From: Candidatus Methanomethylophilaceae archaeon
GTDB taxonomy: Archaea > Thermoplasmatota > Thermoplasmata > Methanomassiliicoccales > Methanomethylophilaceae
Length of the DNA: 64,000 nt
Reading direction: 5' to 3'
Assembly: GCA_017524805.1 (NCBI GenBank)
Contig: JAFXUX010000043.1
Location: 19,362 to 83,361 of the forward strand
The position numbers and the translations under genes are program-made. Below, in pieces: positions 7,822 to 46,237 of the stretch. Under the pieces are notes generated by a model. It did no database searches and had not been told where the DNA came from. It saw nothing but the letters and a program-made list of their open reading frames with translations. Within the stretch, counting starts at the first letter, position 1, and each line of letters begins with the position of its first letter.

Positions 7822-8068
7822 AATCTTCCTGCCTCCCCATATTTGGGTCGGAATCGGGATCCGGTATCGCCTCGACGACGTCTCCGTCGGAAATGAGATC
7901 CCCGACCTTGCCATCCGCCCTCAGCAGACTGTATCCCCTGCGCAATATGAATCCTCCGCCCCAGTATTCGGATGCCGTGTCGCTGATCTCGGATATCTCC
8001 TCTTCGTTGCCGAGATCCATCTTCACCGAGACGGATCTCGCCCTGTTCCTAAGAACGAACCTAACCAT
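7766..8068 (-). CDS. Small ubiquitin-like (beta-grasp) protein or N-terminal half of a frameshifted JAMM fusion
   Basis: 100 residues. The first 75 or so look like a beta-grasp fold: 'MVRFVLRNRARSVSVKMDLG', a helix, 'FILRRGYSLLRADGKVGDLI', then 'DGDVVEAIPDPD', as in ubiquitin/ThiS-like proteins (strand, helix, 'L.DGD.V' turn). The tail after about residue 78 looks unstructured. There is no C-terminal Gly-Gly, so conjugation is doubtful if it ends here. A GGAGG SD lies 7 bases before the ATG, and a 7-bp hairpin lies just ahead of it (8079-8097). The downstream JAMM-like frame makes a ubiquitin-like/JAB pairing likely. Confidence 0.5.
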   Translation of the reverse strand: MVRFVLRNRARSVSVKMDLGNEEEISEISDTASEYWGGGFILRRGYSLLRADGKVGDLISDGDVVEAIPDPDSDPNMGRQEDFGRKIGVARRCDRGSARG

Positions 8069-8078
8069 TGCCTTTCCT

Positions 8079-8097
8079 CCGCACCGACGGGGTGCGG
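8079..8097 (-). promoter_or_regulatory. Leader hairpin before the ubiquitin-like gene
   Basis: A perfect 7-bp stem (CCGCACC and GGTGCGG, 5-base loop) overlaps the start of the Shine-Dalgarno region of the gene beginning at 8068. It could modulate ribosome access. A TATA-like GATTTAAAG lies further upstream. Confidence 0.4.
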
Positions 8098-8194
8098 TAT
8101 GAGACCCCTCAGAAACGCTTTAAATCAAAGCCTATCCGATTAAGATTGCTAAACAATCGTCAGCATAAAATATCGGCATTCGCTTGACAAAGAC

Positions 8195-8407
8195 ATGGCA
8201 GGAACGAGGCTCCCCGACCATTCCCACTGCAAATACTGCGGCGAGCCCATCGAATTCGGGAAGGAATACTGCGGGGAGATCTGCGAGGAATCCTTCAGAG
8301 AGAGGGAGCGCGGCGACAGGAGAAAGGAAATCGCGTTCTATGCCGCGGCCGCCGTATCCGTGATCGTCATACTAGCCGCCGGGTTTTTGCTGCGATCTGG
8401 ATGGTGA
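8195..8407 (+). CDS. DUF2116-type zinc-ribbon membrane protein
   Basis: 70 residues. An N-terminal zinc ribbon (HCKYCGEPI, then YCGEICEESF: four or five Cys) is followed by a charged linker (RERERGDRRKE) and a single C-terminal transmembrane helix. This matches the small archaeal DUF2116 family of unknown function. The next gene begins at ATG 8401 inside its last codons, so it heads the Sel1-paralog operon. Confidence 0.85.
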   Translation: MAGTRLPDHSHCKYCGEPIEFGKEYCGEICEESFRERERGDRRKEIAFYAAAAVSVIVILAAGFLLRSGW

Positions 8408-9618
8408 TTATCTTGGACAGAAGGGGCACCATCGAACCGCTGTGGCGGAAAGAAGCCGAATTCGACGTGCTGTGCGCATCCGGAGTCAGCGAAGCGGCGC
8501 TGATCCTGGGGGAATGCGGATACAAAGTCGGAAACCTGCTGGGCATCTCATTCTCGGATGGCGACATATCTTTCCCGGAAAAACGCTCGGAATGGATAGC
8601 CATTGATGTCAGATCGATATCCGGCGACTATTTCGAGATTGACCGCGGAGGCATCAAAGAGCACGTTCCCTGCGGTAGGTTCGGATTCGAAGAGCCTGAC
8701 GGTTCCGTGGGCAGGATCGGGTTCAACAGCATCCCCGGCCTGGACAACCGTCTGGACCGCATCTGCCAGGCGATAAAACGCTCTTACGGAGAGAAGGCTG
8801 TCGCCATTGACCTGAGAGATCCGCTTTACTCCATCGGCAAAGATGGCGATGTAAAATACCTCGGAGATCCCGACGAGGATGCCATAGAGTCGGCGAACGA
8901 ATGCCTGCTCGGATTCGTGGACAGCCTGGGATGTTTCTGCGTGCGCACCCCAACCAACATATTGGGCTCCGACTCAGGGAGATATGCCCCCGAATTCCTC
9001 GGATACGCGGAATCCTGCCTGGACGCTATGGTAGCCGGAGGCGAAGACGCGCGCAGACGGATGATAGAGCTGGGAATCTCTATCGGAATCAGGATGGACT
9101 GCATGCGCGGGGAAAGCTACGCATTCGATCAGGACGCGATAAGACGTCTCGACAGGCAGTGGAACGCAAGCAACAAAAAAGATGGCGTCGACGGATTGAT
9201 GAGCTCAGCCATGGCCAGATACAGGAATGCCAGAAGCGCCGAAGGCAGAGGAGAGCTTGAGCGCCGCATCGGATCCATCTGGAAGGACAGGAAGGACGGC
9301 AAAGCCGATATTTCGAAGGCCGCGGAATGGATGAGGAAATCCGCGGGTTCCGGCATCCAAAGCGCCGAAAGCGATCTTTTGGACATACTGTGGAGAGAAG
9401 GCTCCGACGATTCCCTGCTGGAGATGGTCGCCTTGGCGCGCAGGATGACCGAAAGAGGGAACGCGAAAGCCATGCTGATCCTCGGAAGGGCATACCGCGA
9501 CGGGAAAGGTCTCCCCCAAAGCAAAAGCAACGCAATCAGATGGTTGTCGAAAGCCTCCGAGAAAATCAAACAGGCCGAGATCGAGCTAAAAGAGCTTGAA
9601 GGAAAGGCTGGAGGATGA
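8401..9618 (+). CDS. Sel1-repeat paralog, subfamily A (first copy)
   Basis: 405 residues with no signal peptide. The N-terminal half is shared with the A-type paralogs at 10859 and 13641: 'AEFDVL', 'WIAIDVRSISGDYFEID', 'AVAIDLRDPLY' and 'DSLGCFCVRTPTNI'. The C-terminal third has Sel1/TPR-like units ('GKADISKAAEWMRKSAGSG' and 'AMLILGRAYRDGKGL'). Sel1 repeats form alpha-solenoids used in protein-protein contacts. The N-terminal domain is a diverged relative of the B subfamily, which resembles DUF6270. TTG 8413 is an alternative start. Function is unknown. Confidence 0.85.
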   Translation: MVIILDRRGTIEPLWRKEAEFDVLCASGVSEAALILGECGYKVGNLLGISFSDGDISFPEKRSEWIAIDVRSISGDYFEIDRGGIKEHVPCGRFGFEEPDGSVGRIGFNSIPGLDNRLDRICQAIKRSYGEKAVAIDLRDPLYSIGKDGDVKYLGDPDEDAIESANECLLGFVDSLGCFCVRTPTNILGSDSGRYAPEFLGYAESCLDAMVAGGEDARRRMIELGISIGIRMDCMRGESYAFDQDAIRRLDRQWNASNKKDGVDGLMSSAMARYRNARSAEGRGELERRIGSIWKDRKDGKADISKAAEWMRKSAGSGIQSAESDLLDILWREGSDDSLLEMVALARRMTERGNAKAMLILGRAYRDGKGLPQSKSNAIRWLSKASEKIKQAEIELKELEGKAGG

Positions 9619-9622
9619 TATC

Positions 9623-10777
9623 GTGGACGAGGATTACGAATATTACGGCGAGAAATCCCAGGCCAAAAAGAAAACGGCCTCGTTCGACATACTGGGCGTG
9701 TGCGTTTCCCGCGACATTTTCGGCCTGGCCAACGGCAACGAGTATGATGTCGGGAAATACACGAGATTGTCTCTCCCATACTATTCTGACATGGAGAATG
9801 TGGACCCTGAACTCTGGGCGACGATGGACGATGTCAAGGGCGAGAGGGATTTCCACAAACGGCTGAAGCTGGACGACCTCAACATGAGATACGCCGACGA
9901 ACTGAACGGCTCCGGGTCGGAATGGCTGCTCATAGATACCAGATCCCTCACATTCGGATACCACGAAGCCAAATTCGGCGGAAAGACCCATTACTATACC
10001 GCCGAGAGCATTTCCGCCGATGAGATCCGCGCGGCGACGAGGAAAAAAGGCTTCGAGCCGGAGAGCATCCGCTTCGTCGAGACGGAAGACGTCCCCGGGA
10101 TCGAAGGGATGATGGACGCATTCTGCGAGTTCGTCAGGGGAAGATATGGGAACAACATCATATTTATTGAGATGAGGGACGCTCTCTGGCACGTCGACAA
10201 AGAAGGCAAAGTGGGCTACATCCGCGATTATCCAGTGGAAAGAAGGCGCAGAATCACCGGAAAATACTGCGAAGCGCTGATGAAAAAGCTTGGCTGCCGC
10301 TGCATCCCCATGCCGTCGAACATCATCTGCGACTACCTCCATTTATGGGGCATGTCCAAAGGCCATTACATCCAGGAGTACTACGATTACGCGTACAGAT
10401 GCCTGGACGCCATCGTGAAAGGGGCTCCTGACCTTGACCTTCTTTTGGAAAGAGAATTCCTGAAGGTATGCGCCGCCATGGATTCCATACGCTCCGGCAG
10501 GATGCTGTCCAGGAACAACACCGTAAGACGCGCGGAAAACCATTGGAAAACCTCTGACGACGCCGACGCCTCCATCTCGAACGCCCAGCTCCTTATGGCG
10601 GAAGCCAACAACCCGCTGCTGGAGTCGGAGCTGGCCGGTATAGTGGGCAGGATATGGCGCGACAGGACGGACGGAAAAGCCGACATGAGGAAGGCATCCA
10701 TGTGGCTGAAGACGGCATCGGACGGGGGCATAGTATGGGCTTCGAAAGAGCTGGAGGAGCTTGGGGAAGGCCAATGA
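9623..10777 (+). CDS. DUF6270-like Sel1-repeat paralog, subfamily B (first copy)
   Basis: 384 residues from GTG 9623, chosen because GGAGG lies 8 bases upstream (ATG 9596 would overlap the preceding gene). The N-terminus 'SFDILGVCVSRDIFGLANG' resembles the GSCVSRD-type opening motif of DUF6270 proteins. Subfamily B markers follow: 'KYTRLSLPYY', 'WLLIDTRSLTFGYHEAKFGG', 'KLGCRCIPMPSNII' and 'HYIQEYYDYAYRCLDAIVKG'. A single Sel1-like unit ends the protein. Catalytic function, if any, is unknown. It follows the A copy by 4 bases, so the two are probably translated together. Confidence 0.83.
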   Translation: MDEDYEYYGEKSQAKKKTASFDILGVCVSRDIFGLANGNEYDVGKYTRLSLPYYSDMENVDPELWATMDDVKGERDFHKRLKLDDLNMRYADELNGSGSEWLLIDTRSLTFGYHEAKFGGKTHYYTAESISADEIRAATRKKGFEPESIRFVETEDVPGIEGMMDAFCEFVRGRYGNNIIFIEMRDALWHVDKEGKVGYIRDYPVERRRRITGKYCEALMKKLGCRCIPMPSNIICDYLHLWGMSKGHYIQEYYDYAYRCLDAIVKGAPDLDLLLEREFLKVCAAMDSIRSGRMLSRNNTVRRAENHWKTSDDADASISNAQLLMAEANNPLLESELAGIVGRIWRDRTDGKADMRKASMWLKTASDGGIVWASKELEELGEGQ

Positions 10778-10858
10778 AAGCCTGTCCAGGGGATAACGCT
10801 TTATTTTATGTAGTATACGATTCGGTGATGGCGATAGGCCGCATTCAGGAGGAGTGCT

Positions 10859-12040
10859 ATGGGCGGAAAGACTGACGGGAGAATCGTTTTCGATGTTCTG
10901 GGCGGGTGCCCCGACGGGGCGATGCTGGAGACGATGCTCATCTGCGATTTTGGGATAGGGAACATCATAAGAGCCGAATTCGAAGCGGAGCCCATAACGC
11001 CGCCCGCGAACCCGTCGAGATGGCTGGCCATCGACATCAGATCCATCGCATGCGACCATTTCGAGGCGATCAGCGAGGACGAAGACGTGAGATACGTGCC
11101 GTGCACCGGATCGTCCGTGAGGGAGCTGAAGATGGGCGGAGCCAAATCGGTCCGCAGGATCGGGTTCGCCGACATCCCAGCCCTCGACGAATACGTCAAA
11201 GATCTCTCCTCAATCGCGCAAAAGTATGGGAAAAACGTCATAGCCTTCGACCTGAGAGACCCGGCATGGATCTCCACCCCGGGAAGGAACGTGGTTCCCG
11301 CTGACGACCCGAATTCCGCGCGCAGGAATGAAGCCGAAGACATGCTCTCCCTGATGCTGGTCGACTCCCTCGGATGCCATTGCATACGCACTCCCTCGAA
11401 CATAGTCGGCCGCGGAAAAGACAGCGACGAGATGCCGCGCTACGGCGAGGGTTTCTACGCCTACGTCAAAGACTGCGTCAAAGTTATAGCGAGCAGAAAG
11501 CCGGAAGCCTCCAGAAAGCTCAGGACGCTGGGATTGGAGATAGCCGACCACATGGACGCGGCCCGCAGAGCCCCGTTCCTGTCTTCGGTCTCATTCCTAG
11601 AGAGTATGGAAAAGGAAAAGGAAAGCATGGACGATTGGGACGAGATCATCGGCATGCTCCGCAAAAAGATGGCCGTAGCCAAAAGCGAGATCCTCAAGGC
11701 AGAAATCGAGGGACGCATCGGAGCGGCATGGCGCGAGAGGGATGACGGCAAAGCGGACCTGAAGAAAGCCGTCCGCCTGCTCAGGAAATCCGCCGACTCC
11801 GGATCGATATGGGCGAGAAGGGAGCTGCTATCCGCGCTGTGGGCGGAAGGTTCCCCCAACTCCCTGCTGGAGATGGTGTCCAGAGCGTATAACTATTCCA
11901 TAGAGGGGGACAAAGACGCGATGGAATTCCTCGGCTGGGCATACGAAGAGGGCGTGGGGCTGCCCAAGAACGCCGCTGAATCGAGGAGATGGCTCGCCAA
12001 AGCGGAACGGAAGACCGAAACCATATCGCTGTCGGAGTGA
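10859..12040 (+). CDS. Sel1-repeat paralog, subfamily A (second copy)
   Basis: 393 residues. The N-terminus 'IVFDVLGGCPDGAMLETML' is followed by 'WLAIDIRSIACDHFE', 'VIAFDLRDPAW' and 'DSLGCHCIRTPSNIVG', then two or three Sel1 units ('GKADLKKAVRLLRKSADSG', 'AMEFLGWAYEEGVGLPKN'). An 81-base gap upstream holds a TATA-like TTTATTTTATG and a strong SD (GGAGGAG), so a second promoter may start here. It is the best template for placing the amber codons of the third A copy. Function is unknown. Confidence 0.85.
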   Translation: MGGKTDGRIVFDVLGGCPDGAMLETMLICDFGIGNIIRAEFEAEPITPPANPSRWLAIDIRSIACDHFEAISEDEDVRYVPCTGSSVRELKMGGAKSVRRIGFADIPALDEYVKDLSSIAQKYGKNVIAFDLRDPAWISTPGRNVVPADDPNSARRNEAEDMLSLMLVDSLGCHCIRTPSNIVGRGKDSDEMPRYGEGFYAYVKDCVKVIASRKPEASRKLRTLGLEIADHMDAARRAPFLSSVSFLESMEKEKESMDDWDEIIGMLRKKMAVAKSEILKAEIEGRIGAAWRERDDGKADLKKAVRLLRKSADSGSIWARRELLSALWAEGSPNSLLEMVSRAYNYSIEGDKDAMEFLGWAYEEGVGLPKNAAESRRWLAKAERKTETISLSE

Positions 12041-12045
12041 CTGCC

Positions 12046-13644
12046 ATGACCGATGACATCTCCAAAGGTCCGGCCGTGCCGGAAAGGAAACCGCCATTCG
12101 ACGTGCTGGGCGTATGCATAGGGCGCGACGTGTTCGGAGTGGCCAACTGCAACGAATATGAGATAAGGAAATACACCCGCCCATCGCTCCCCAGCTTCGC
12201 GGACGACGAGCGCGTAAAAGAGAGCGAGCGCCTGGGAGACGACGACGTCAAAGGCAAGACCAGATATCTCCGCCGCCGCAAGCTGGACGACCTCAACAGA
12301 ACTTGCGAGGAAGGCCTCTGGGAATCCGGTTCCGAATGGCTTCTTCTGGAGATCAGAACTGTCTCCTACGAATACTGGGAGGCCAGATACGGCGGGAAAA
12401 CGCACTATTTCCTAGGAAACACCACTACCGAGGAGGAGATGCGCAAGGCCGTCGAAAAGAGGGGCTTGGAATTGGAGTCTCTCCGCAAAGTCAAGATCGA
12501 TGACATCCCGGGGACATCGGAGATGGTGGATGCCGCCTGCGATTTCATAAGGAAGAGATACGGAAACAACGTGATCCTCCTCCAACAGAAGGAGGCCCTA
12601 TGGCGCATGGACCGCTTCGGGAACGTGGCCCTGAACCGCACCTTGGAAGCGGAATCGATGAACAGCACCATCGACAAGTTCACAAGGATGATCCTCAGAA
12701 ACCTCGGCTGCCATTTCATCCGCATACCTTCCGACATCATAAGCGATGCCTGGCAGAGGTGGGGAGATACGCCCGCCCACTACATCCAAGAATACTACGA
12801 TTACGCTTATGCGTGCGTAGACGACATCGTTAGCGGGATCCCCAATCTGGATAGGTCGCTGGAACGCAGGTTCATGGAATTCAGCGCCCAACTGAACGCG
12901 ATACGCTCCGGGAAGATGCTGTCGAGAAAGAACGCCGTCAGCCGTGTGTCCGATCTTATGGAAAGAAGGGGCAACGCGGACCTCTGCATAAAAACAGCGA
13001 CTCACCTCAGAAAAAGAGCCAACAGCCCTATGCTGGAAGCGGAGCTCGACGGCGCCATAGGAAAGCTGTGGCGCGACAGGGCTGATGGGAAGGCAGACCC
13101 GGAAAAGGCGATGGCTCTCATGAAATCGTCCGCGGAAAGCGGGATAGAATGGGCGCAGACCGAATATCTGGGCATGCTGAGAGCATCCGGGAACTATGAA
13201 GAGACTCTGGAGGCTGCCATAAGGTATGCTTCCCTAGGCAACGGCGAGGCCATCGGGTTCGTCGGGAGGGCCTACAAGAACGGCGAAGGCGTCGGCAAGG
13301 ACAAGGCGATTGCTGAGAAGTGGCTGGAAGAGGCGTCCGTCAGGGACGTGAAATGGGCCGTCCTGGAGTACATGCAGCTCCTTTGGGAAGAGGACGCCGA
13401 CATACTCGTCGAGAAAGCCCAGAGATTCGCGAACCACAGCGGAATCGCAATGGGATACCTCGGCAGGGCATACCGCTACGGCAAAGGCACGAAGAAAGAC
13501 CTGGCCAAGGCGAGGGAATGCCTGTCTAAGGCAGCGGAGATGAAAGTTCCTTGGGCCGAGAGAGAGCTGAGAAGTCTGGATGCGAATATGGCGAAAGCGC
13601 AGGAAACCAAGAGCAAACGCAGGGATGGAACGGGCGGGAAATGA
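12046..13644 (+). CDS. DUF6270-like Sel1-repeat paralog, subfamily B (second copy, extended)
   Basis: 532 residues from ATG 12046, 5 bases after the preceding stop. It opens with 'PFDVLGVCIGRDVFGVANC' (the serine of the usual VSRD is glycine here), then 'WLLLEIRTVSYEYWEARYGG', 'NLGCHFIRIPSDII' and 'HYIQEYYDYAYACVDDIVSG'. The C-terminus is the longest of the array, with about five Sel1 units (for example 'AIGFVGRAYKNGEGVGKD' and 'AMGYLGRAYRYGKGTKKD'). Its last bases overlap the ATG of the amber-containing copy (ATGA), a translational-coupling arrangement. Confidence 0.85.
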   Translation: MTDDISKGPAVPERKPPFDVLGVCIGRDVFGVANCNEYEIRKYTRPSLPSFADDERVKESERLGDDDVKGKTRYLRRRKLDDLNRTCEEGLWESGSEWLLLEIRTVSYEYWEARYGGKTHYFLGNTTTEEEMRKAVEKRGLELESLRKVKIDDIPGTSEMVDAACDFIRKRYGNNVILLQQKEALWRMDRFGNVALNRTLEAESMNSTIDKFTRMILRNLGCHFIRIPSDIISDAWQRWGDTPAHYIQEYYDYAYACVDDIVSGIPNLDRSLERRFMEFSAQLNAIRSGKMLSRKNAVSRVSDLMERRGNADLCIKTATHLRKRANSPMLEAELDGAIGKLWRDRADGKADPEKAMALMKSSAESGIEWAQTEYLGMLRASGNYEETLEAAIRYASLGNGEAIGFVGRAYKNGEGVGKDKAIAEKWLEEASVRDVKWAVLEYMQLLWEEDADILVEKAQRFANHSGIAMGYLGRAYRYGKGTKKDLAKARECLSKAAEMKVPWAERELRSLDANMAKAQETKSKRRDGTGGK

Positions 13645-14864
13645 GCGCGAAGAAAGGCTTGCCGAAATAGATCTGGATTGACGTACTGGGGGGAGAGCCC
13701 GACGGGATAACCCTGGAAACGCTCTGCAGAAGCGGGTTCGGCGTCAAGAATTTCATAAAGGTCTCGTTGGACGGCGGAAGCAGGAAAGTCAAAGCCGATA
13801 TCCCGAAGAAGAAATCAAAATGGATTGCGATCGACGTAAGGTCGCTTTCGTCCAATTGGTTCGCTGTCGACGAAGAACCTACCGTATACGTGCCTTGCGC
13901 CGGCGGATTCAGATCCGAGCTGAGGCAGAAGAATGACGATAAACCGTTCCGCATAGCCGCGTTCTACGGCATGGAAGACTCCGATGCTTTCCTCGATTCC
14001 CTTGCCGATCTCATCGAAGAGCAGTACGGGAGCAATGCCGTGCTGCTCGACATCAGAGACGCATACTGGACCTAGACCATCGGGGCCAACGTCGTATATT
14101 ATGATAACAGGGAGCAGACCCGCATGTCCCTGTCGGGGAATGCGGTAGCCCTGAGATTGGAAGGCAGATTGGGATGCTTCTACGTCCGCACGCCGACGAA
14201 CGTCATCGACTGCCCGATCAGAAGAAGCACATCGCATTACCCTGCCGCCGTCTACGACTATATCAGCGCATGCCTGAGGGCCGTCATCGATGGTAAGGAG
14301 GACACAAGAGCCAAGATCAATGATCTGAGCATCGAAATCGCCAATAACATGGACATCCTCCGCAGCGACCCATACCTAAGGGCGCTGAACATACTGGGCG
14401 AAATAGATTCCATGGGCATGGACAATCCCGAAGAGGTTCTGGCGGTCATCGATGACTGGATGAAGATCGCGAGGAACGAAACGTTGGTATCAAGGCTGAA
14501 AGGATTCGAGGCGAGAGTTTGGCGCGACAGAGCCGATGGCAACGCCGATCTGGCGAAAGCTACGGGACTGATGCGCATATCCGCGGATTCAGGGACAAAA
14601 TGGGCAAAAAATGAGCTTCTCGGCTTGCTCTGGGAGATCGATACCCCCGAATCGCTGCTGGAGATGGTCTCCCGCGCATTCGCCGATTCCCAAGAGGGGA
14701 GTTCGACGGCCAAAGGCTGCATCGGATAGGCCTACAGGGATGGAAGGGGATTGCCCAAAAACGAGGCGAAATCCGCCGAATGGCTCCTCATGTGCAAAAA
14801 GGCGGAAGCGAAAGAGGCAAAGGTCAAATCGGAAGAAGAAGAGAGGGAGGAAGGGGAATCGTGA
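13641..14864 (+). CDS. Sel1-repeat paralog, subfamily A (third copy) with three in-frame TAG codons; possible pyrrolysine protein
   Basis: From ATG 13641 a single frame runs to TGA 14862-14864, interrupted only by TAG at 13668-13670, 14073-14075 and 14727-14729. Read through, it gives 407 residues, against 405 and 393 for its A-type paralogs, with no frameshift and with all family blocks: 'IDVLGGEPDGITLETL', 'WIAIDVRSLSSNWF', 'GCFYVRTPTNVID', Sel1 units. Against the 10859 copy, the ambers fall at an Arg, a Ser and a Trp/Arg position. The ATG overlaps the upstream stop (ATGA), and the final TGA overlaps the next gene's start (GTGA). In a UAG-decoding methanogen this would be a full-length protein with three pyrrolysines; otherwise it is a young pseudogene. 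Confidence 0.7.
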
Positions 14865-16207
14865 GCGGGACTGATGATACCCACCAGCATCCGGAGGCTC
14901 TGGCGACGATCGACATCATGGGAGTGTGCGTCAGCCGCGATGTCTTCGGCCTCAAGGATGACCGCGAATTCCTGATCGGAAAATACGTAAGGCTGTCGAT
15001 GCCCTATTTCCTGGACGAAGAAGAATTGGACGAGGACAAGCTTGCCACCGAGAGCATGCTGACCGGCAAGAAATTCATAAAGCGCTTGAAGCTGGATGAA
15101 CTCAACAAAAGATACAGGTACCTCAAAACTTCCGGCTCGGATTGGGTTCTGATCGACCTCAGGGCGCTTTCGTACGGATTGTACGCGGTTAATTACGGAG
15201 GCGAGACCCACTACATCATGAAGGAAAGGCTGACCCAGCAGGAGATCTGCTCGGCCATAGAGAAAAGGGGCTATGCCGTGGAATCTATCGAAGAGATGGA
15301 ATTCGAGGATGCCCCCAATCTCAATGAGATGATAGATGCCACGTGCGATTTCGTCAAAAAGAGATACGGCGACAAGATAATCCTCCTCGAAATCAGAGAT
15401 GGCATCCTTAGGATGGACAGAGCTGGCAGGACTGCGCCCATGCAGAGAGAGATAATCGAGAACAGGCGCAGGGAGATAGAAAGATACACGCTGTTATTCA
15501 AGGAAAAGCTGGGATGCCGCTGCATACGCATGCCCGCCGAGAACATCTGCGACGGCGCCCACAAGTGGGGCTACAACCCTGCGCATTTCGTCCAAGAGTA
15601 CTACGACTATGCCTTCGCATGCATCGAGGACATAGTCAAAGGAGTCCCGGACCTCGACAGAGCGCTGGACAGAAGATACATGGAATTCTGCGCCCAATTG
15701 GACGCGATGCGGATCGGCGCCATGGTCTCCAGGAACAATGGGGTCAAGCGCGTGAAAAGAAATCTCGTAACCAAGAAGTACGATGCGGCGCTCGAATTGG
15801 CATCGACGCTCAAAAACAAGGCCAACAACCCGGCGCTTGAATACGAACTGGAAGGCATGATCGGACGGATATGGTTCGAAAGGGAAGACGGCAATGCCGA
15901 TGCGGAGGAAGCCGAGGCCCATATGAGAGAGGCGGCAAAGGGAGGCATATCCTGGTGCGAGACCTATCTCCTCCGCATCCTCATAGACAAGGGCGAATTG
16001 GATGAGATGGCCGAGAAAGCCGAGGAATACGCGATGAAAGGCAACTGCGAAGCCATGGGATACCTTGGAAGGGCTTACCGCGACGGGCTGGGCGTGGATA
16101 AAGACCTGGACAAAGCGAAAGAGTGGATGAAAAAATCTGCAATAAGAAGAGTCAAATGGGCCAAAAAAGAATATGCCAAGCTCATCGAGGCCGATCCAAC
16201 TTCCTGA
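14861..16207 (+). CDS. DUF6270-like Sel1-repeat paralog, subfamily B (third copy)
   Basis: 448 residues from GTG 14861, which overlaps the previous TGA by four bases (GTGA). ATG 14780 would lie inside the preceding gene and adds low-complexity basic sequence. 'TIDIMGVCVSRDVFGL', 'YVRLSMPYF', 'WVLIDLRALSYGLYAVNYGG', 'KLGCRCIRMPAENI' and 'HFVQEYYDYAFACIEDIVKG' define subfamily B. Two or three Sel1 units follow ('AMGYLGRAYRDGLGVDKD'). The 3' end overlaps the convergent folP gene by 26 bases. Confidence 0.85.
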   Translation: MSGTDDTHQHPEALATIDIMGVCVSRDVFGLKDDREFLIGKYVRLSMPYFLDEEELDEDKLATESMLTGKKFIKRLKLDELNKRYRYLKTSGSDWVLIDLRALSYGLYAVNYGGETHYIMKERLTQQEICSAIEKRGYAVESIEEMEFEDAPNLNEMIDATCDFVKKRYGDKIILLEIRDGILRMDRAGRTAPMQREIIENRRREIERYTLLFKEKLGCRCIRMPAENICDGAHKWGYNPAHFVQEYYDYAFACIEDIVKGVPDLDRALDRRYMEFCAQLDAMRIGAMVSRNNGVKRVKRNLVTKKYDAALELASTLKNKANNPALEYELEGMIGRIWFEREDGNADAEEAEAHMREAAKGGISWCETYLLRILIDKGELDEMAEKAEEYAMKGNCEAMGYLGRAYRDGLGVDKDLDKAKEWMKKSAIRRVKWAKKEYAKLIEADPTS

Positions 16208-16976
16208 CCGTCAGAGCGACATTATGCACCCTGACCATATCCGCGCCCCATCTGACCGATTCCCATGCCGCCTCGGCGGAAGCCTCGTCGCGGTCCATGC
16301 CGGGGTAAGCCAGAGACAGAAACCTCTTCCTGGAAGAGGCCATCAGGACCGGATACCCGTCGGAGAAGAAGCGGGAGTTGCGGAGCACCATGAGATTCTG
16401 CTCCGGAGTCTTCCCGAAGCCTATCCCGGGATCCAAAGCTATCTTCTGCCTTGGGATTCCGGCCTCCAGAGCCGCCGCGGCGCGCTCCCTGAGGAAATCG
16501 CGTATCTCATCCATGTATCCGTCCCCCATCAGAGACGAATGCTGATCTTTTGGGCCGCATGGGTTATGCATTATTATGGCGCATATGCCGGCCTCGGCGC
16601 AGAGCTCCGGCATCCCTGGGTCCCTGAGCCCGTTGACGTCGTTTATTATGTCCGCGCCCAGATCCGCCGCCTTCCTGGCCACCGCGGTTTTCATGGTGTC
16701 CACCGACACCGGCACGCTCAGAGACGGGACTATCTCCCTCAGAACGGGCGCCAAACGCGATATCTCAATCTCGGCCGAGATCGGAGACGAACCGGGACGG
16801 GTGGACTCCGCGCCCACGTCTATGATCCCTGCCCCTTGGTCCTCCATCTCGAAGGCATGGCGGGCGGCGGCGCGAGGATCCGACCAAACGCCGCCGTCGG
16901 AGAAAGAATCGGGCGTCACATTGAGGATGCCCATTACTATAGGCCCTCCCCGGAGGGAGGCTCTTTGGAATTCCAT
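16182..16976 (-). CDS. folP: Dihydropteroate synthase
   Basis: 264 residues. It condenses p-aminobenzoate with the pterin pyrophosphate to give dihydropteroate, a step of folate (or an analogous pterin cofactor) synthesis. All family motifs are present: 'MGILNVTPDSFSDGG' (residues 15-29), 'DVGAESTRPG', 'INDVNGLRDP', 'DPGIGFGKT', 'ASSRKRF' and 'VRVHNV'. The protein is bacterial in type and of normal length. It starts 2 bases downstream of the Fe-S protein gene, so it is probably the last gene of the larA operon. Confidence 0.95.
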   Translation of the reverse strand: MEFQRASLRGGPIVMGILNVTPDSFSDGGVWSDPRAAARHAFEMEDQGAGIIDVGAESTRPGSSPISAEIEISRLAPVLREIVPSLSVPVSVDTMKTAVARKAADLGADIINDVNGLRDPGMPELCAEAGICAIIMHNPCGPKDQHSSLMGDGYMDEIRDFLRERAAAALEAGIPRQKIALDPGIGFGKTPEQNLMVLRNSRFFSDGYPVLMASSRKRFLSLAYPGMDRDEASAEAAWESVRWGADMVRVHNVALTVRKLDRPR

Positions 16977-16978
16977 GC

Positions 16979-18073
16979 TCAGAGCAGCCCGTCGATGATC
17001 TCCACGAGATCCTTCACTTCGACCTTCCTGTCCCCTTTGGCGGAAGCCAGATTGTTGACGCAGAACGGGCAGGTCGTTATGATCACGTCGGCGAACGACG
17101 CCTCATCCAGCCTGGTATTGGCGATGTCCATGGACTCTTCGGGATACGCGGATCTGACTCCTCCGCCTCCTCCGCAGCAATGGCTGGTGCTGCGGTTGAA
17201 TTCCATCTCCCTGAAGTCCAGGCCGGGAATCTTCTTGATGACTTCCCTGGGCGCCTCGTACACGCCGCAGTGCCTTCCCAGATGGCAGGGGTCGTGGTAA
17301 GTGGCGACAACTCCATCCATCGGCTTCAGCTTCAGATCCTGCTCTGCGAGGAATTCGGTGATGTGGAGCACCTTGAACGGGACGTCCACGTATTTGGGGT
17401 ACTCAATCTTGAACATCCTGTAGCATCCGGCGCAGGCGAGGACCAAAGTCTCTACACCCATGGCGCGGATGGCCTCGACGTTCTTCTTCATGAGCTCAGT
17501 GACGTCGTCCAGGGGCCATCCGACCCTCTGCATGACGGATCCGCAGCATACCTCGTCCACGGCAGTGTAATCAACTCCGAGCTTGTCCAGTATGGAGAAG
17601 GTCGCCTCCGCGGTCTTCTTGGATCTGTACGTGGCGGTGCAGCCGACGAAATACCCGATCTTCGCTTTGTGCGGCTCTTTCCCCAGCGTCTGGCGCCTTG
17701 AAGCCTTCTCCCCGAAAGGGTTGCCATCGGCCAGGATGTTCTCGCACATGGCCTTGTGCTTCGGGAGGATGTTGCCGCTCTTCACGAGGTCGGCGCGGCA
17801 CATCTCGATTATATCGACGATATCCACTTTGGATGGGCATCTCCTCACGCAATCCGCGCAGGTGGTGCACGTGTACATGTTCCTGACGAGGGATTCGTCC
17901 GGCTGAAGGTCGCCGTTCAGAAGACCGTAAGTAAGCACGATGCGTCCCCTGGAAAGAGCCGAATCCCACCCGATAGCTTTGAACGAGGGGCAGACGCTCT
18001 TGCAGAACCCGCACATGGTGCAGACGTTGACGGCCTTCCTGACCGCCTCCAGCTTGTCCGCTTCGAAAGTCAT
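16979..18073 (-). CDS. HdrD/GlpC-like (Fe-S)-binding oxidoreductase subunit with two CCG domains
   Basis: 364 residues from ATG 18073, which overlaps the larA stop (ATGA). Two [4Fe-4S] motifs lie in the N-terminus ('CTMCGFCKSVCP' and 'CTTCADCVRRCP'). Two cysteine-rich CCG domains follow ('DEVCCGSVMQRVG', 'CAGCYRMF', and 'HDPCHLGRHCGVY', 'HCCGGGGGVR'). This is the layout of HdrD, GlpC and LldE proteins that pass electrons or reduce disulfides. Pairing with LarA suggests electron transfer during 2-hydroxyacid metabolism, but no flavin subunit (GlcD type) is adjacent. Confidence 0.88.
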   Translation of the reverse strand: MTFEADKLEAVRKAVNVCTMCGFCKSVCPSFKAIGWDSALSRGRIVLTYGLLNGDLQPDESLVRNMYTCTTCADCVRRCPSKVDIVDIIEMCRADLVKSGNILPKHKAMCENILADGNPFGEKASRRQTLGKEPHKAKIGYFVGCTATYRSKKTAEATFSILDKLGVDYTAVDEVCCGSVMQRVGWPLDDVTELMKKNVEAIRAMGVETLVLACAGCYRMFKIEYPKYVDVPFKVLHITEFLAEQDLKLKPMDGVVATYHDPCHLGRHCGVYEAPREVIKKIPGLDFREMEFNRSTSHCCGGGGGVRSAYPEESMDIANTRLDEASFADVIITTCPFCVNNLASAKGDRKVEVKDLVEIIDGLL

Positions 18074-36659: not shown

Positions 36660-38620
36660 TCAAATCTCGGCGAGGACGCCGCCGGATCCGGAGAACGTCT
36701 TGCCGGCGAGGTTGCCCGCGGTCTGAGAAATCGCTTTTCCATCGGCGCCCACGAAGGAAATCCCGTAGAACGCGTTCTTCCCGAGAGCATTGAGACTCTC
36801 GGAGAATGATACGCTATTCAGCCCGGAACATCCGGAGAAGGCGCTGACACCGATGCTGCTGGCGGCGGAAAGGTCTGCCCCAGATAGAGATGAGCATCCC
36901 ATGAAGGCGTATCCGCCGATGATATCCGCGGAGAGCGTGACGCTCTTGAGAGAAGAGCATTTGGCGAAAGCCTTCAGGCCGATTTCCCTCACGGATCCGA
37001 GGTCTGCGCTCTTCAGAGCGGAGCAGCCATAGAACGCGCTGCTGCCTATCGAATCGACGGAATAAGATTCGCCGGCATAGGATATCCCATCGGGAATGGC
37101 TATGGCGATCGGGGCGCCGCTGTATCCGGTTACGGACAGCAAGTTGTCTTCCTCCGAGGTTATGGTGTATTGCAATCCGTCCAGCATGAAGGAGTGCCCG
37201 TCAGAAACCAGCTCAAGCTTCCCATCGGACCCTACGAATCTCTGCCCGGCCAGATTCTCGGCTGTGGCTTTGATCGAGTTTCCTTTGGCATCTGCGAACG
37301 AGAGGCTGCGGAGGGCATCCTTCCCAATGGAAGAGAGGCTCTCAGAGAACGATGCATATCCGACCTTAGGGCATCCGTAGAACGCCCATCCGCCTATCGA
37401 ATCGGCAGACAGCGACATCGATGCGAGATTGGCACAGTTGGCGAAGGCCTTCATCCCTATGGACGAGACGTACGGGAGATCGATCGACACCAAGCTTGAG
37501 CATCCGTAGAACGCTTTATCGCCCACGGAGACGACCCTCAGGGATTTCCCGTTGAATTTAACGGTCTCCGGCAGGGATAACGAAGCGGGGCTGCCCTCAT
37601 AGCCTTTGACCGAGGCGGTCATGTCCACTGCAGAAAGGACAGAGAAAATCAGCCCATCGGCCATGAACTCCGTCCCGTCTCCAAACTCGGAGAGCTTGCC
37701 CGCAGATCCGGAGAAGGTCCTGCCGGCAAGGTTGCCCGCGGTCTGGGCGATCGCTTTTCCGTCGGCGCCCACGAAAGTGATTCCGTAGAACGCATTCTTC
37801 CCAAGTGTTGTGAGGTTCTCAGAGAATGATACGCTCTTCAGCCCGGAACATCCGGAGAAGGCGCTGACGCCGATACTGCTGGCGGCGGAAAGATCTGCCC
37901 CGGAGAGGGATGAGCATCCCATGAAGGCGTATCCGCCGATGGTCTCCGCAGAAAGCGTGACGCTCTTGAGCGAACTGCATGATGCGAATGCCTTCAATCC
38001 TATCTCTTTCGAAGAGCCCAGATCAGCGCTGATCAGGCTGGAGCATCCGTAAAACGCTTTATCGCCCACGGAAACGACGCTGAGGGCCATTCCGTTGAAT
38101 TGGACGGCATCCGGCAGGGATATCGAAACAGGGCTGCCTTCGTAGCCGATAACCGAGGCGGTCATGTCCGCGGCGGAAATGACGGAGAAGATCAGACCGT
38201 CAGCCTTGAACTCCATCCCGTCTCCAAACTCGGAGAGCTTGCCCGCAGATCCGGAGAACGTCTTTCCGGCTAGGTTGCTGGCCGTAGGAGAAAGACTCTT
38301 ACCGCTCGCGTCTGTGAAGGAAACCCCGTAGAACGCATTCTTCCCAAGTGTTGTGAGGTTCTCAGAGAATGATACGCTCTTCAGCCCGGAGCATCCGGAG
38401 AAGGCGCTGGCGCCGATTGATTTGGCATTGGGAAGACTGAGCTCCTCCAGGGAAGCGCATCCGAGGAACGCCCATCCGCCGATGCTCTCAGAGGATATGA
38501 AAGCCTTCCTCAGGCCCTTGCAATCGGCGAACGCCTTGGCATCTATGCTCACCCCTTCCTCGACCCAAAGGGATTCTATGGCAGATCCCATGAATGCTTT
38601 TGTAGCGATGCCTACCACAT
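36660..38620 (-). repeat. C-terminal LRR blocks with 543-bp near-identical spacing
   Basis: Stretches such as CCAAGTGTTG (37801 and 38344) and CCAAACTCGG (37681 and 38224) recur exactly 543 bp apart (181 codons). A further copy near 36781 matches the one at 37801, 1020 bp away. These are coding repeats of the BspA-like C-terminal region. Confidence 0.75.
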
Positions 38621-41600
38621 CGTAATCGACGCCGTTGTGAGACACGGTTGCGGGAATGACGACGTCTTTCTGAAGGCCTACTCCATATCCTGTGACTTCA
38701 ACCGTCTGCCCGCTGGCAATGGTGTATTCCACCCCGCCGATGGCGAACGCGGATTCGAGTTCTGTGGATATCGCGGCGAAGGAGACATCTTTCGCAGGCA
38801 TGACGAATTTGCCGTTGCTCACGGCAACATCTGAAGTGGCCCAATCGCTCACGGAGTATCCGGCTTTCTGGTACGCAGGGCGCACGCTTACCGTCTCTCC
38901 GGGCAGATGGTTCTCAGTGAATACGGCGGCTCCATCGAGAGCATAGGTTACTGCGTACTCTTTGGACGCCCAAATCGCCACATACGCGATGTTCCCGGTC
39001 ACGGTTGCTTTGACGGAAGGGGACCATCCGGCGAATTCGTATCCAGCTTCGCATGAGGGGACACCCACGAACGCTGGAGTCGCTTTGCCATACTCAACAG
39101 AATATGTCTGCGCCTGGAAAGTTCCGTGCTCTCCCGGCAGATATCTGACGCTGTATGTGCGCTTGATCGCATCGAACGTCGCGGCGTATGTGGCATCTTC
39201 GGTTGCGACGAGCACATCGGGAGTCCAGCCTGCGAATCTGTAGGAATATTCCGCGGTCGCTGCCCTTGTCGGAGAGGCACCGGAATAAGTCGGGACGCTG
39301 CCATAGGCCACGGTATCGGTTTCGAGGACAGAACCGTCCCAGTTCTTCCAGGTGATTGTGAAGGAAGTCTGCTGAGTGTACGCGTTGAATACCACATTCT
39401 TGGCAGGCATGACGAACTTTCCGCTGGATACGGTGGCATCGGATGTGGTCCAGGGGGTCACATTGTAACCATCTTTCACGTATGGGGCGCGGACGCTCAC
39501 GGTCTCGCCGATCTGGTGGGTCTCGGAGGCGATCCTCGATCCGTCGACGCGATACGTGACAGTGTAGCTGTTAGCCGACCACTGCGCGGTATAGGCGGCG
39601 TTGCCTGTGACGATCTGGCCTACGGACGGGCTCCATCCTGCGAACGAGTAACCTTCCTCTCCCGCGGCTGTCCCTTCGAAAGCCGGAGTTTCCACGCCAT
39701 ATCTGACGGTGTAAGTCTGGCTCTCGAAAGTTCCGTGCTCTCCGGGCAGATATGTTATGGAATACATCACGTACGATGTGGTGTATTTCGCGGTGTACGT
39801 GGCATCCGCAGTCGCGGCAGATACCTGGGGGTCCCATCCGGCGAACGTGTAGCTGTACACGGAATTCGGAGCTCTGGCCGGCGCCGATCCGGGGTAAGAC
39901 GGCATCTCGCCGAAAGCGACCGTAGTCGTAGCCAGGACCGCTCCGTTCCAGTTCTTCCAGGTTACCGTGAAGGAGGATTGCTGCGCATAAGCGTTGAATC
40001 TCACGCTCTTGGCCGGCATGACGAACATGCCGTTTGATACTGAGACATCCGAAGAAGACCAAGCACTGACTTCGTACCCGTCTTTCACATACGGTGCGCG
40101 GACGCTCACGGTCTCGCCGACCCTGTGGGACTCGGAAGCCACTATGGTCCCATCCACAAGATAAGAAACGGAGTAGGACATCGGAGTCCAGAGGGCCACA
40201 TACTCCGCGTTGCCGGTCACTATCTGGCCGACCGAAGGGGACCAACCGGCGAACGCGTATCCTGTCTCTCCCGTAGCGGTGCCTTCGAATGACGGAATTT
40301 CCATGCCGTATCTGCTGGTGTAAGTCTGGCTCTCGAAAGTTCCGTGCTCTCCGGGCAGATATGTTATGGAATACATCACGTACGATGCAGAGAATTTCGC
40401 AGTGTACGTGGCATCCGCCGCCGCAGAGGTTATCTCGGGATCCCACCCAGCAAACATGTACGCATAGATTGAGTTGGACGCCCGGGTAGGCTCGGCTCCG
40501 GAATATGATGGCGTCTCGCCGGAAGCGACCGTAGTCGTGGCAAGAACCGCTCCGTTCCAGTTCTTCCAGGTTATAGTGAAAGAGGATTGCTGCGCATATG
40601 CGTTGAATCTCACGCTCTTGGCCGGCATGACGAACATGCCGTTGGACGCTGAGACATCCGACGTCGACCAGAAGCTGACTTCGTACCCATCTTTCACATA
40701 TTGAGCGCGGACGCTCACGGTCTCGCCGAAGCGATGGGTCTCCGATGACACCAGAGATCCGTCGACATAATACGACACGGCGTAGTTGTTCGGCGTCCAG
40801 AGGGCGGTGTATGTGGCGTTGCCCGTGACAGTCTGCGATACCGAAGGCGACCATCCGGCAAAGCTGTATCCGGCCTCTCCCGCCGGAGTGCCGGAGAACG
40901 CCGGAGTCGCATTCCCATACTGGGCGGAATAGGTCTGCGAGGTGAACGTCCCGTGCTCTCCGGGCAGGTATTTGATGGTGTATCCCACGGTCGATGTGGT
41001 GAAGACCGCGGTGTATGTGGCGTTGCTGGATGCGACGGTTACGGTTGGGTTCCATCCCGAGAACGTGTAGCTCACGGAAGAGGATGATGCTCTCGTCGGA
41101 GTGGGTCCGCTGTATGAGGGCAAAACACCTGAAGCTACAGTATCCGTCGCGAGGGTCGTTCCGTCCCAGTTCTTCCAGGTTATGGTGTAATTCTGCGTTT
41201 TCGCCTTGACGGTGACGACGCAAGTCGCCGTGTAGCCTCCATCGTTCGTCTTCGCGGTTATCGTGGTTGTGCCGGCGGAAACCGCGGTCACGATGCCGTT
41301 GCTGACGGTGGCGATGGACGTATCAGCGCTGCTCCAGATCACGCTGCGGTCGGAAGCGTTCTGGGGAAGGACAGTCGCATTCAAAGTCAGGGAGCTTCCC
41401 TGATCCATCGTCGCCGATGTCTTGTCAAGGGAGATCGAAGTGACATGGGTCTGCTGCCCGCCTACCGTTACTACGCAGGACGCGCTCAGGCTTCCGCATT
41501 TGACGGTTATCGTCGCGGTCCCGGCGGAAACCGCGGCCACTATGCCGTTCTCGACGGTGGCCACGGATTTGTTGCTGCTGGTCCATTCCTCTGTCCTGGT

Positions 41601-44600
41601 CCCGCTGTTGGACGGGGTGAATTCGGTGTCGAGCGCGATGGTCTCGCCGGGCTGCATTGACACGGACGTCCTGTCAAGAGACAGGCTCTGGGCCGGAGAT
41701 CCATGCCTTATGCAGAACATCCTTCCGCTGTCGTTCACATAGACGATGCTTCCGTCGCTGAGGAAGTGGGGCTGCTGCCCGGTGTACTGCTTGATGGTGA
41801 CTTCCTTCAGCTCAGTGACCGTGAGCATGTTGGTGCTCAGATTGTGTTCGACGACGAATATGGATGACGAATTGTTGTACGGGACGATGTACGCGCAGGC
41901 TTTCCCGGCGTGCCCCGTGGATACGACCATGCTTCCGTGCCCATAGAAGTTGGTGTTGTCGACGGATGCCACCGGCTCCATGCTTTCCATTTCGTATACA
42001 GTGAATGTGCCGTCCGAGAACACATAACCGTATCCGCCGTTGACTATCAGCGCGGAGCTGAGGCCGTTGTATTCCCCGTTGGACCTGACCTTGAGGGTGG
42101 CGTGGCTGAATCTCCCGTCATCGCTGATCTTCACGGAGGCAACGTTGAAGATCTTCTCTTTGGCGGAGCCTCCCATCAGCTCGCCTTTGTAGGTCGTGAG
42201 AGTCGCGTATCCTTCGTTGAGGTCGATGTATCCCTTGTTGATGTAATTGCCTTTGAATTCTGGGATGTAGATCTTATCGATCATAGAGCCGTCGGAGATT
42301 TTGCTCGTCTGAAGGAAAACGGATCCGTCGCCGTCGAATCCGGCGGTCATGAGGAATCCTTCGCCGAACAGCAGCTGGGTCCCGCCCTCGTAGGCGGTTA
42401 TGAAAGATCCGGTGTTCTTCGTCCAGACAGGGCCCTGGACGTTGTATGGGTCTGACGGATTCTTGTCGGCGGCTTCGAAACAGCAGGTCCCTGCGGAAGT
42501 CTGCACAAAGAAGTACCCGTCATGATAGAACGTCTTGGCGATGAGGCTGGCCGACAGGGCAAACACCTGGTTCAGATCCGTGTCGAAAACCTTTCCGGAA
42601 TAGGAGTCCAGGACCAGGCCGTTTCCTACGGTCACATACTCATAGTATCCGCTGAATCTGTCCGTTGTTGTGACGCTTTTCAGAATCCTTCCGTCATCGG
42701 CGTCTATCTTCAGCAGGATATTGTCGTTTTTGGCGAAGATATAGTCTCCGATGACCGCGGGGGCGTAGGTCATGCCCTTGAACACCATCCCGCCGACGTT
42801 GCTGTTCCCTTCCCCGCAGATCCATGACTGGACGTAGCTGGAAGAGGTCGGGGTATCCGTATCCACCCTGTTGATGAACGAGCCGGTGGCGTAGTATTCT
42901 GATGAAGCGTGGGCAGCTGTATCACCCGACACGGTCACGAACATAGATGACGAGGGATAGTCGTAGGCCGTGCCGTTCACGGTCCACGAGACTATTTCGT
43001 ATCCCATCCTCGCATCGAATACCAGCTCGACGAGGGATCCGGCGGTAACATAGGAGCCGGATGTCAGTTTGGTCGGAGAGCCGTTGACATATGCGTATGC
43101 AGTCCCGTTTTCAGCGGAAAGGGTAAGCTTGCATTTCGCCGCCGATTGGGGGGCCCATTTGGCGTATGCTGTCTCGTTCTTGGTAACCGGCCCGAACCCA
43201 TAGAGCTCGGTAAGGCTTGAGGACGAGTACCATCCTAAGAATGTGTAACCGCTCTTCGTCGGATCCGCTGGCATAGTAGCCGAAGCCCCGGAAAGAACGG
43301 TTTGGCTCGCGACCGAAGAGCCTCCGTTGGAGGAGAAGGTCACGGTGTACGACGATTTCGCCGTAATCCCGGACACGGAGATGGAGCTGTTGCGGTAAAT
43401 CACGAACGAATACACGCTGTATTCGGACGTCTGATAGTCGGGAGAGATCGAAGAGCCGTTGACCTTTACGGAGAACGAGGATGATTTCTGGTATCCCGGG
43501 AGGCAGCGGACCTCGAAGATGACTTTCGAACCGTACGGGACATTTTTGCTCTGGGACACCTCCAGCGAATATCCGGTCCCGGCGGAGAAACTCACATCAT
43601 AAGTGTTCAGCTTGACGCCGGTGATCGAAACCGAAGTCCCATCGGCCACATTGCTGATGACGTACATGCCAGAAACGTCATACGATCCCATTTTGGTCCC
43701 CTGGGATGCGGGAGAGATGGTTTTTCCTCCTGAGGTGACAGCAATCTTGGATTCATCGTATCCCTGCGAGAATGACACTCCGAAAGCCATGGAATTTCCG
43801 TATGTCTTGATGGAAATCCCCGTGTGCTTGGCGTCATTGGATTCGAAGAGGACGCGTCCGGAAGAGGTGTCTGCATAGTAGCCGGAGAGCGGAAGGCTGC
43901 CGCATTTTTCCTCGTCATAATTTCCAGGGGCGAAGTACGCGCGTGCAGTGCCGATGTCCATGGCGTACATATCAAGCGTTGGGCTGCCGCAGATCACGAC
44001 GGTTTTGAGCTTCTTCGCCGTCATGAGCGCGTAAGATCCTATCTTGTCTACCGAAGACGGGATAGTTATGTCCGCCGCCGTGGAGAGGGTAGCCATCGAT
44101 TTTGCGGCGATGGTTTCCGTCCCCTCCTTTATCGATATGGAAGCCGAGGAAGGCAGGACGTACAGAAGCTCGGTGCCATAATAGACAGCTTTGTTTGCGT
44201 ACGAAATCTTGCTGTTGGCGGAGGTCAGGCTCTTCCCGGAACCGACGGAATCAGCGAGCGCCTTGTTGGAGAATCCCACGCAATCCGATCCGGCCTGGAT
44301 TCCTGAGGAACTCGCTTCCACGATAATCTTTCCGGAACTTCCGTTGGCGGTTTTCACTTCGACGTATTTGTATCCCTGAGAACTGTCGGTCTTCAAGAGA
44401 TTTTTCACAGGGCTGTCGGCAAAAATAGAGGAGTCTTCGAACGGTATGGACGTATGTACGATGATATTCGTCAGTTTATCGCAATTGCCAAAAGAATTTC
44501 CGCCGGCGGCTTTCAGCATCCCATAGGTCTCTATTTCGGTCAGCGCTTTACAGTAATTGAAACAATTTGGGGATATGTATGTGTAAGAGCCTTCAAAAAT

Positions 44601-45953: not shown

Positions 45954-46237
45954 TCTATACCTCCGCGCCCTTTGCAGACATCGAAATCGCGTCAAGCGTG
46001 GTCTGGACGAGGTCAGCATTATGCTCCAAGTCCGCTTTATCGATAGTATCTTTTGGAAGGGTATAAAACATGCCATATGAAGGAAGACTTTGCGATATAG
46101 AGACCTATCAATCAGACCGAGATTATGGGCTCAACCTGATTTCCAACATCCATATCTTTTGCGATCGACGAAAGATGGCGGATTAAAAATGGCAATTATT
46201 CGCAGAATCTCTCTCAGACTGCAACGAAAAGCCGAAG

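Follow-up and report, generated by a model that had tools for sequence, protein, structure and literature searches.

A gene in a tandem array of a Methanomethylophilaceae archaeon whose three in-frame amber codons are probably decoded as pyrrolysine

Pyrrolysine (Pyl), the rare 22nd amino acid, is mostly known from methylamine enzymes. It is catalytic in the methyltransferases MtmB, MtbB and MttB, and in the Pyl code archaea of Kivenson and colleagues (2025) TAG reportedly acts as a sense codon throughout a genome. Within the order Methanomassiliicoccales, Ca. Methanomethylophilus alvus has a complete pyl gene set, TAG stops at a frequency of 1.6%, and 16 predicted non-methyltransferase Pyl proteins, among them the 389-aa Sel-1 protein AGI86303 (PMC4153887), while the sheep rumen methanogen ISO4-H5 has 46 amber-containing genes, methyltransferases included (PMC5011839).

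The gene described here, A3, lies in a 64,000-nucleotide stretch of DNA (the window) and carries three in-frame TAGs. MtmB, MtbB and MttB of the same genome have one in-frame TAG each; theirs encodes a catalytic Pyl, whereas sites 10 and 145 of A3 are variable among relatives. A few plausible TAG stops remain in this genome (8/546), in apparent contrast to the Pyl code archaea. The likeness to M. alvus extends from the complete pyl set to the rarity of TAG stops, at 1.6% there (PMC4153887) and 8/546 (1.5%) here; however, the table in that report gives no amber count per gene (PMC4153887), and A3 has three ambers and sits in an array of A/B pairs. ISO4-H5 belongs to the same order and likewise has ambers within the frames of metabolic as well as hypothetical genes (PMC5011839), but a triple-amber repeat protein is not mentioned in the portion of that report available to us (PMC5011839). 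An earlier note on this DNA, made from the sequence alone, had called a non-methyltransferase protein with three pyrrolysines unusual. This holds for the count of three but not for the presence of Pyl outside the methyltransferases, given the 16 such proteins predicted in M. alvus (PMC4153887) and those of ISO4-H5 (PMC5011839). Predicted non-methyltransferase Pyl proteins are thus already known in the order, and what is unusual is the amber count and a possibly conserved third site (PMC4153887, PMC5011839); no mention of two, three or multiple pyrrolysines in one protein turned up in the literature collection searched.

A3 is the third A member of a tandem array, A1-B1-A2-B2-A3-B3, with the following features:

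8401..9618, + strand: A1, paralog without TAG, with a Sel1 repeat Pfam match
9623..10777, + strand: B1, DUF6270 protein; start uncertain, GTG 9623 or TTG 9596
10859..12040, + strand: A2, paralog without TAG, with a Sel1 repeat Pfam match
12037..13644, + strand: B2, DUF6270 and Sel1; start GTG 12037 or ATG 12046
13641..13644, + strand: ATGA overlap of the B2 stop and the A3 start
13641..14864, + strand: A3, 407-codon frame; predicted alpha/beta (SGNH-like) N-terminal domain followed by a Sel1/TPR-like solenoid
13668..13670, + strand: TAG1, A3 codon 10, directly ahead of the first predicted strand; a K/E/R site in relatives
14073..14075, + strand: TAG2, A3 codon 145, at a predicted strand end; a variable I/S/L/A/M site
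14727..14729, + strand: TAG3, A3 codon 363, within the predicted solenoid helix 355-367; R/W in relatives
14861..14864, + strand: GTGA overlap of the A3 stop and the B3 start, of the same form as the A2/B2 junction (12037)
14861..16207, + strand: B3, DUF6270 and Sel1, without TAG; presumed partner of A3
13570..16046, + strand: stretch around A3/B3 without a syntenic counterpart in Tb.RUG.172 (L057), the array otherwise matching

With TAG as sense, the A3 frame (13641..14864, +) runs from ATG 13641 to TGA 14862-14864 over 407 codons plus the TGA, and its only interruptions are TAGs, with TAA, TGA and frameshifts all absent inside. Translation therefore bore out the single frame with three TAGs and no other lesion that the earlier note had described, to the exact coordinate, and the ATGA start overlap and GTGA stop overlap are both present as it had them. 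The read-through product is 32% identical to A1 (405 aa) and 36% to A2 (393 aa). At codon 10 the window paralogs have E and R, and K is found in the database homolog P0003 and the relatives L006 and L022; at codon 145 the window paralogs have I and S, and P0003, L006, L022 and L007 have L, A, M and L, respectively; at codon 363 relatives have R and W. The residues first proposed for these sites (Arg, Ser and Arg/Trp) were accordingly close, the full sets in the paralogs being E/R, I/S and R/W. Among the codons seen in relatives, a one-step neighbour exists for TAG3 only (TGG), with TAG1 and TAG2 two to three steps away.

In the nearest syntenic genome, Tb.RUG.172, the order is A1 B1 A2 B2 and then directly the downstream flank. 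The window matches it at 75% over 7915-13569 and at 85% over 16047-17597, and no counterpart of A3 was found there, 13570-16046 giving paralogous matches only, so that by sequence comparison the window has A3/B3 as an additional pair compared with that genome. The breakpoints (window 13570-16046 against L057 5574-5702) fall within the 3' ends of B2 and of B3, a position that points to growth of the array through recombination between paralogs.

The genome, that is, the window's own assembly of 1,950,639 bases in 47 contigs, carries a tRNA-Pyl with the anticodon CTA (CUA) on contig C25, where pylS, pylB, pylC and pylD are also found, all above the NCBIfam cut-offs. The search for pyl genes that the earlier note had called for, and whose failure would have made A3 an ordinary pseudogene, thus recovered pylT, pylS, pylB, pylC and pylD. 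Near them on C25, MtbB and MttB score above cut-off with a single TAG read through, and a third methyltransferase with one in-frame TAG, for which NCBIfam gave no match at 1e-10, is by eye presumably MtmB. PylS is without a fused N-terminal domain, and PylSn was not found at E<=0.001; a shortened pyrrolysyl synthetase has been described for the Methanomassiliicoccales (PMC3941956). Decoding of UAG as Pyl in E. coli requires no cis signal (PMC8211752). Judging from the rumen-type records L057 and L058 and from the methyltransferases, the organism is probably a gut methanogen of animals. That UAG is sense but is read by a suppressor tRNA inserting some other amino acid is hardly to be expected beside a tRNA-Pyl with a CTA anticodon and a complete pyl gene set, and a tRNA search covering L001 and the window found nothing to support it.

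The meaning of TAG was assessed in 35 stretches of the genome, the window included (635,693 of 1,950,639 bases, one third of the genome), using a home-made codon score that was trained on part of the sample and applied with a 20-bit threshold. Under the standard code, 32/546 ORFs end at TAG, and 24 of these 32 continue as coding DNA, defined as in-frame coding sequence of 15 bits or more behind the stop, as against 33/442 TGA-ended and 12/72 TAA-ended ORFs (together 45/514; Fisher p 2.5e-17 versus TAG). The difference is also seen in the first 19 stretches once the focal and methyltransferase entries are left out (7/10 TAG-ended ORFs continue versus 21/289, p 3e-6). Eight of the 546 ORFs (1.5%) end at TAG with no coding signal behind it, as scored by the home-made finder in one third of the genome, and termination at UAG may therefore still occur. 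On these counts, TAG is likely to be mostly sense in this genome.

Reading TAG as sense yields 544 genes in the sample, 453 of which end at TGA and 75 at TAA. Internal TAGs are present in 31 of the 544: 513 have none, 26 have one, at most four have two, and a single gene, A3, has three, the maximum in the sample; at the sampled rate, A3 included, 0.03 genes with at least three would be expected among 544. These multi-amber numbers are upper limits, the two-TAG genes being doubtful: in L090 17170 and L099 8263 segment scores suggest true TAG stops near the end, in L094 3764 the second TAG is the penultimate codon, and L094 11857, which scores weakly, may not be a gene. When 16 other TAG genes were compared with Pfam, an above-cut-off match spanned the TAG in 8/16 (archaeal riboflavin synthase, citrate synthase, M20 peptidase, PP2C, AAA_12 helicase, DBI_PRT, CbiA and DUF7064), and for the other 8/16 no above-cut-off match was shown across the TAG.

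Two of these genes lie on contig C9 of the same genome (G000): the citrate synthase (L090:13316-14668), with one internal TAG at codon 58 behind which the family match continues, and the archaeal riboflavin synthase (L090:6619-7089), with one internal TAG at codon 50 and a further above-cut-off match to TIGR01506. Both are housekeeping enzymes, and their synthesis would rely on the decoding of pyrrolysine. In a FecCD-type permease (L036:16869-18044) the TAG is at codon 4 and the domain starts later, so that a downstream start is equally possible. An enrichment of TAG in Sel1-like genes, identified with our own motif, is not claimed (3/17 versus 28/527, p 0.066; p 0.22 without A3), and an amber motif specific to Sel1 found no support, as 0/130 listed Sel1 matches in the genome have an in-frame stop (150/180 candidates scored). 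Elsewhere in the window (36660-46076, - strand), an ORF of 3138 residues combines leucine-rich repeats of the BspA type with Listeria-Bacteroides repeats and bacterial Ig-like domains and is likely a giant surface protein.

We also searched for the family across 60 genomes, including A3's own, scoring at most 30 candidates per genome for the large families. Among the matches listed, every in-frame stop is a TAG (eight entries with 11 stops, three of them A3's own; outside A3, seven entries with eight stops), and in-frame stops were likewise TAG among the matches listed in a 102-genome search. In a sheep-rumen relative (L058, the MAG RGIG6908, and the G027 loci L074 and L084), three genes assigned to the family by similarity and, by eye, a GVC-type motif have full-length frames between TAA/TGA codons; they contain two (L058:2710-4773), three (L084) and two (L074) in-frame TAGs; in L084 the last of the three precedes the end by six codons. 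By eye, the ambers of relatives occupy differing repeat positions, which again lends no support to a Sel1-specific amber motif; this comparison used four of five loci, L063 being left out.

Three database proteins bear on the third amber. P0001 (99% identical to A3, 201 aa, with 6 member sequences in the protein search) and P0002 (85% identical, 201 aa) are 201-residue pieces that start at the ATG following TAG2 and extend as far as the TAG3 site, and P0003 (50-51% identical, 360 aa) carries K in place of the first amber and L in place of the second; all three end precisely at the residue preceding TAG3. Since gene callers stop at TAG, these shared ends mean that P0001-P0003 very likely all have a codon of the stop type at this position; a contig end there in each homolog would be a coincidence. 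The pattern points to an old and conserved third amber. The source DNA of P0001-P0003 was not found by a contig search with an alignment as query, which gave two other relatives (36 and 28% identical), and a viral contig search with P0003 gave none; among the 102 family genomes, A3's own included, no match came nearer than G026 and the copies in the window itself.

The same three ends are what would be expected if TAG3 were a real or partial stop, giving a 362-residue product, or two lengths set by pyrrolysine supply, with only TAG1 and TAG2 read as Pyl. The eight sampled ORFs of 546 that may end at TAG also fit such an arrangement, which we nevertheless consider unlikely. Gene callers using table 11 would end the homologs at this site regardless; the tail behind TAG3 is conserved as well as the rest or better in four relatives (17/40 identical residues with A1, 17/33 with A2, 15/22 with L006 and 13/30 with L022), though not in L007 (5/19); and of the four segments delimited by the ambers (0.43, 0.43, 0.34 and 0.57 bits/codon, within the range of the methyltransferases in the same table) the tail has the highest per-codon coding score. 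Moreover, ending at 363 would cut the predicted helix 355-367, and the TGA/GTG overlap with B3 is kept.

If A3 were instead a young pseudogene, its three lesions would all have to be TAG by chance, for which single-step mutational opportunity gives a probability of ~0.086. This is not negligible, and we rejected the all-TAG pattern as stand-alone proof of sense decoding; because it is weak by itself, the case rests on genome-wide and comparative evidence. The pair A3/B3, having no counterpart in the nearest syntenic relative, may also be dispensable. However, A3 departs from otherwise invariant alignment columns about as often (5/44) as five relatives do (5/39, 5/44, 2/41, 2/41 and 3/42), with 20/57 in the distant B-like L007. 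In neutral simulations, the distance to P0003 produced ~8 stops and left 0/1000 runs open, whereas the frame of P0003 has no stop before the TAG3 site; at the distance to P0002, a quarter of the runs (25%) stayed stop-free. TAG3 is not very recent, however, since P0002 ends there too. The simulations argue for constraint over most of the history of the gene and are compatible with a very recent loss. With the in-frame stops of the listed family matches all TAG, and with TAG likely mostly sense genome-wide, we regard a pseudogene as quite improbable; as far as can be read from the DNA, A3 is without sign of decay, showing neither mixed lesions nor any mark of relaxed constraint.

In-frame starts lie 32, 16 and 7 codons behind TAG1, TAG2 and TAG3, from which the pieces between the ambers could in principle be translated separately by reinitiation. 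The 32 codons that would then be left untranslated behind TAG1, reachable only through it, match P0003 better (21/32) than does the whole gene (180/359); the same stretch has 16/32 identities with both A2 and L006 and just 8/32 with A1 and L022. From TAG2 to the next start there is no clear excess (4/15 with P0003, 7/16 with A2), and of the seven residues reachable only through TAG3, 6, 4, 5, 6 and 3 are identical to A1, A2, L006, L022 and L007, respectively. Reading frame and conservation thus continue behind the ambers, the conservation weakly so over the first 16 codons after TAG2. Separate pieces would, in addition, break the predicted domains, and a split gene is very improbable.

What the full-length product might be was approached through profiles and predicted structure. 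Read-through A3 has no Pfam match at E<=1, neither to DUF6270 (PF19786) nor to Sel1 (PF08238), while B1, B2 and B3 match DUF6270 (PF19786) and A3 aligns with the B types at 23-26% identity. In a Foldseek search with the predicted A3 model, Sel1-type structures rank first (E 1e-4), and in VIA-align TPR chains score higher (Z to 14.5) than the Sel1 rows (~12). On this model, the A3 product would be a full-length protein predicted to be Sel1-like, with a possible SGNH-like N-terminal domain.

Taken together, A3 is probably a working gene with a full-length product, its three TAGs decoded as pyrrolysine. That TAG is a pyrrolysine sense codon here, as the earlier note proposed, is supported by the pyl set, the rarity of TAG as a stop and the conservation, from which we infer Pyl insertion. 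Charged tRNA-Pyl would outcompete release factor at the three ambers, with no special signal needed, and ribosomes would reach the A3 TGA and pass to B3 via the GTGA overlap. Pyrrolysine may have come in by point mutation at tolerant sites, because TAG is nearly always sense in the lineage; at sites 10 and 145, where relatives differ in their residue, the side chain itself is unlikely to serve a function. The A and B proteins may work pairwise: B, which has a GVCVSRD-type block, would perhaps be a hydrolase, and A, lacking that block, its partner. An amber kept down to 50% identity would differ from the sporadic ambers elsewhere, and we tentatively entertain, as a minority possibility, that TAG3, outside the methyltransferases, is an ancient Pyl codon under selection, its side chain serving the solenoid or partial termination at it making a two-length, B3-coupled switch that reports pyrrolysine supply.

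With A3, the Pyl proteins predicted in this methanogen order come to include one that likely has three pyrrolysines. Because standard gene callers split amber genes, such proteins stand cut in public databases, as seen for P0001 and P0002, and the shared end at TAG3 makes it possible to test whether a pyrrolysine outside the methylamine enzymes is conserved and perhaps functional.
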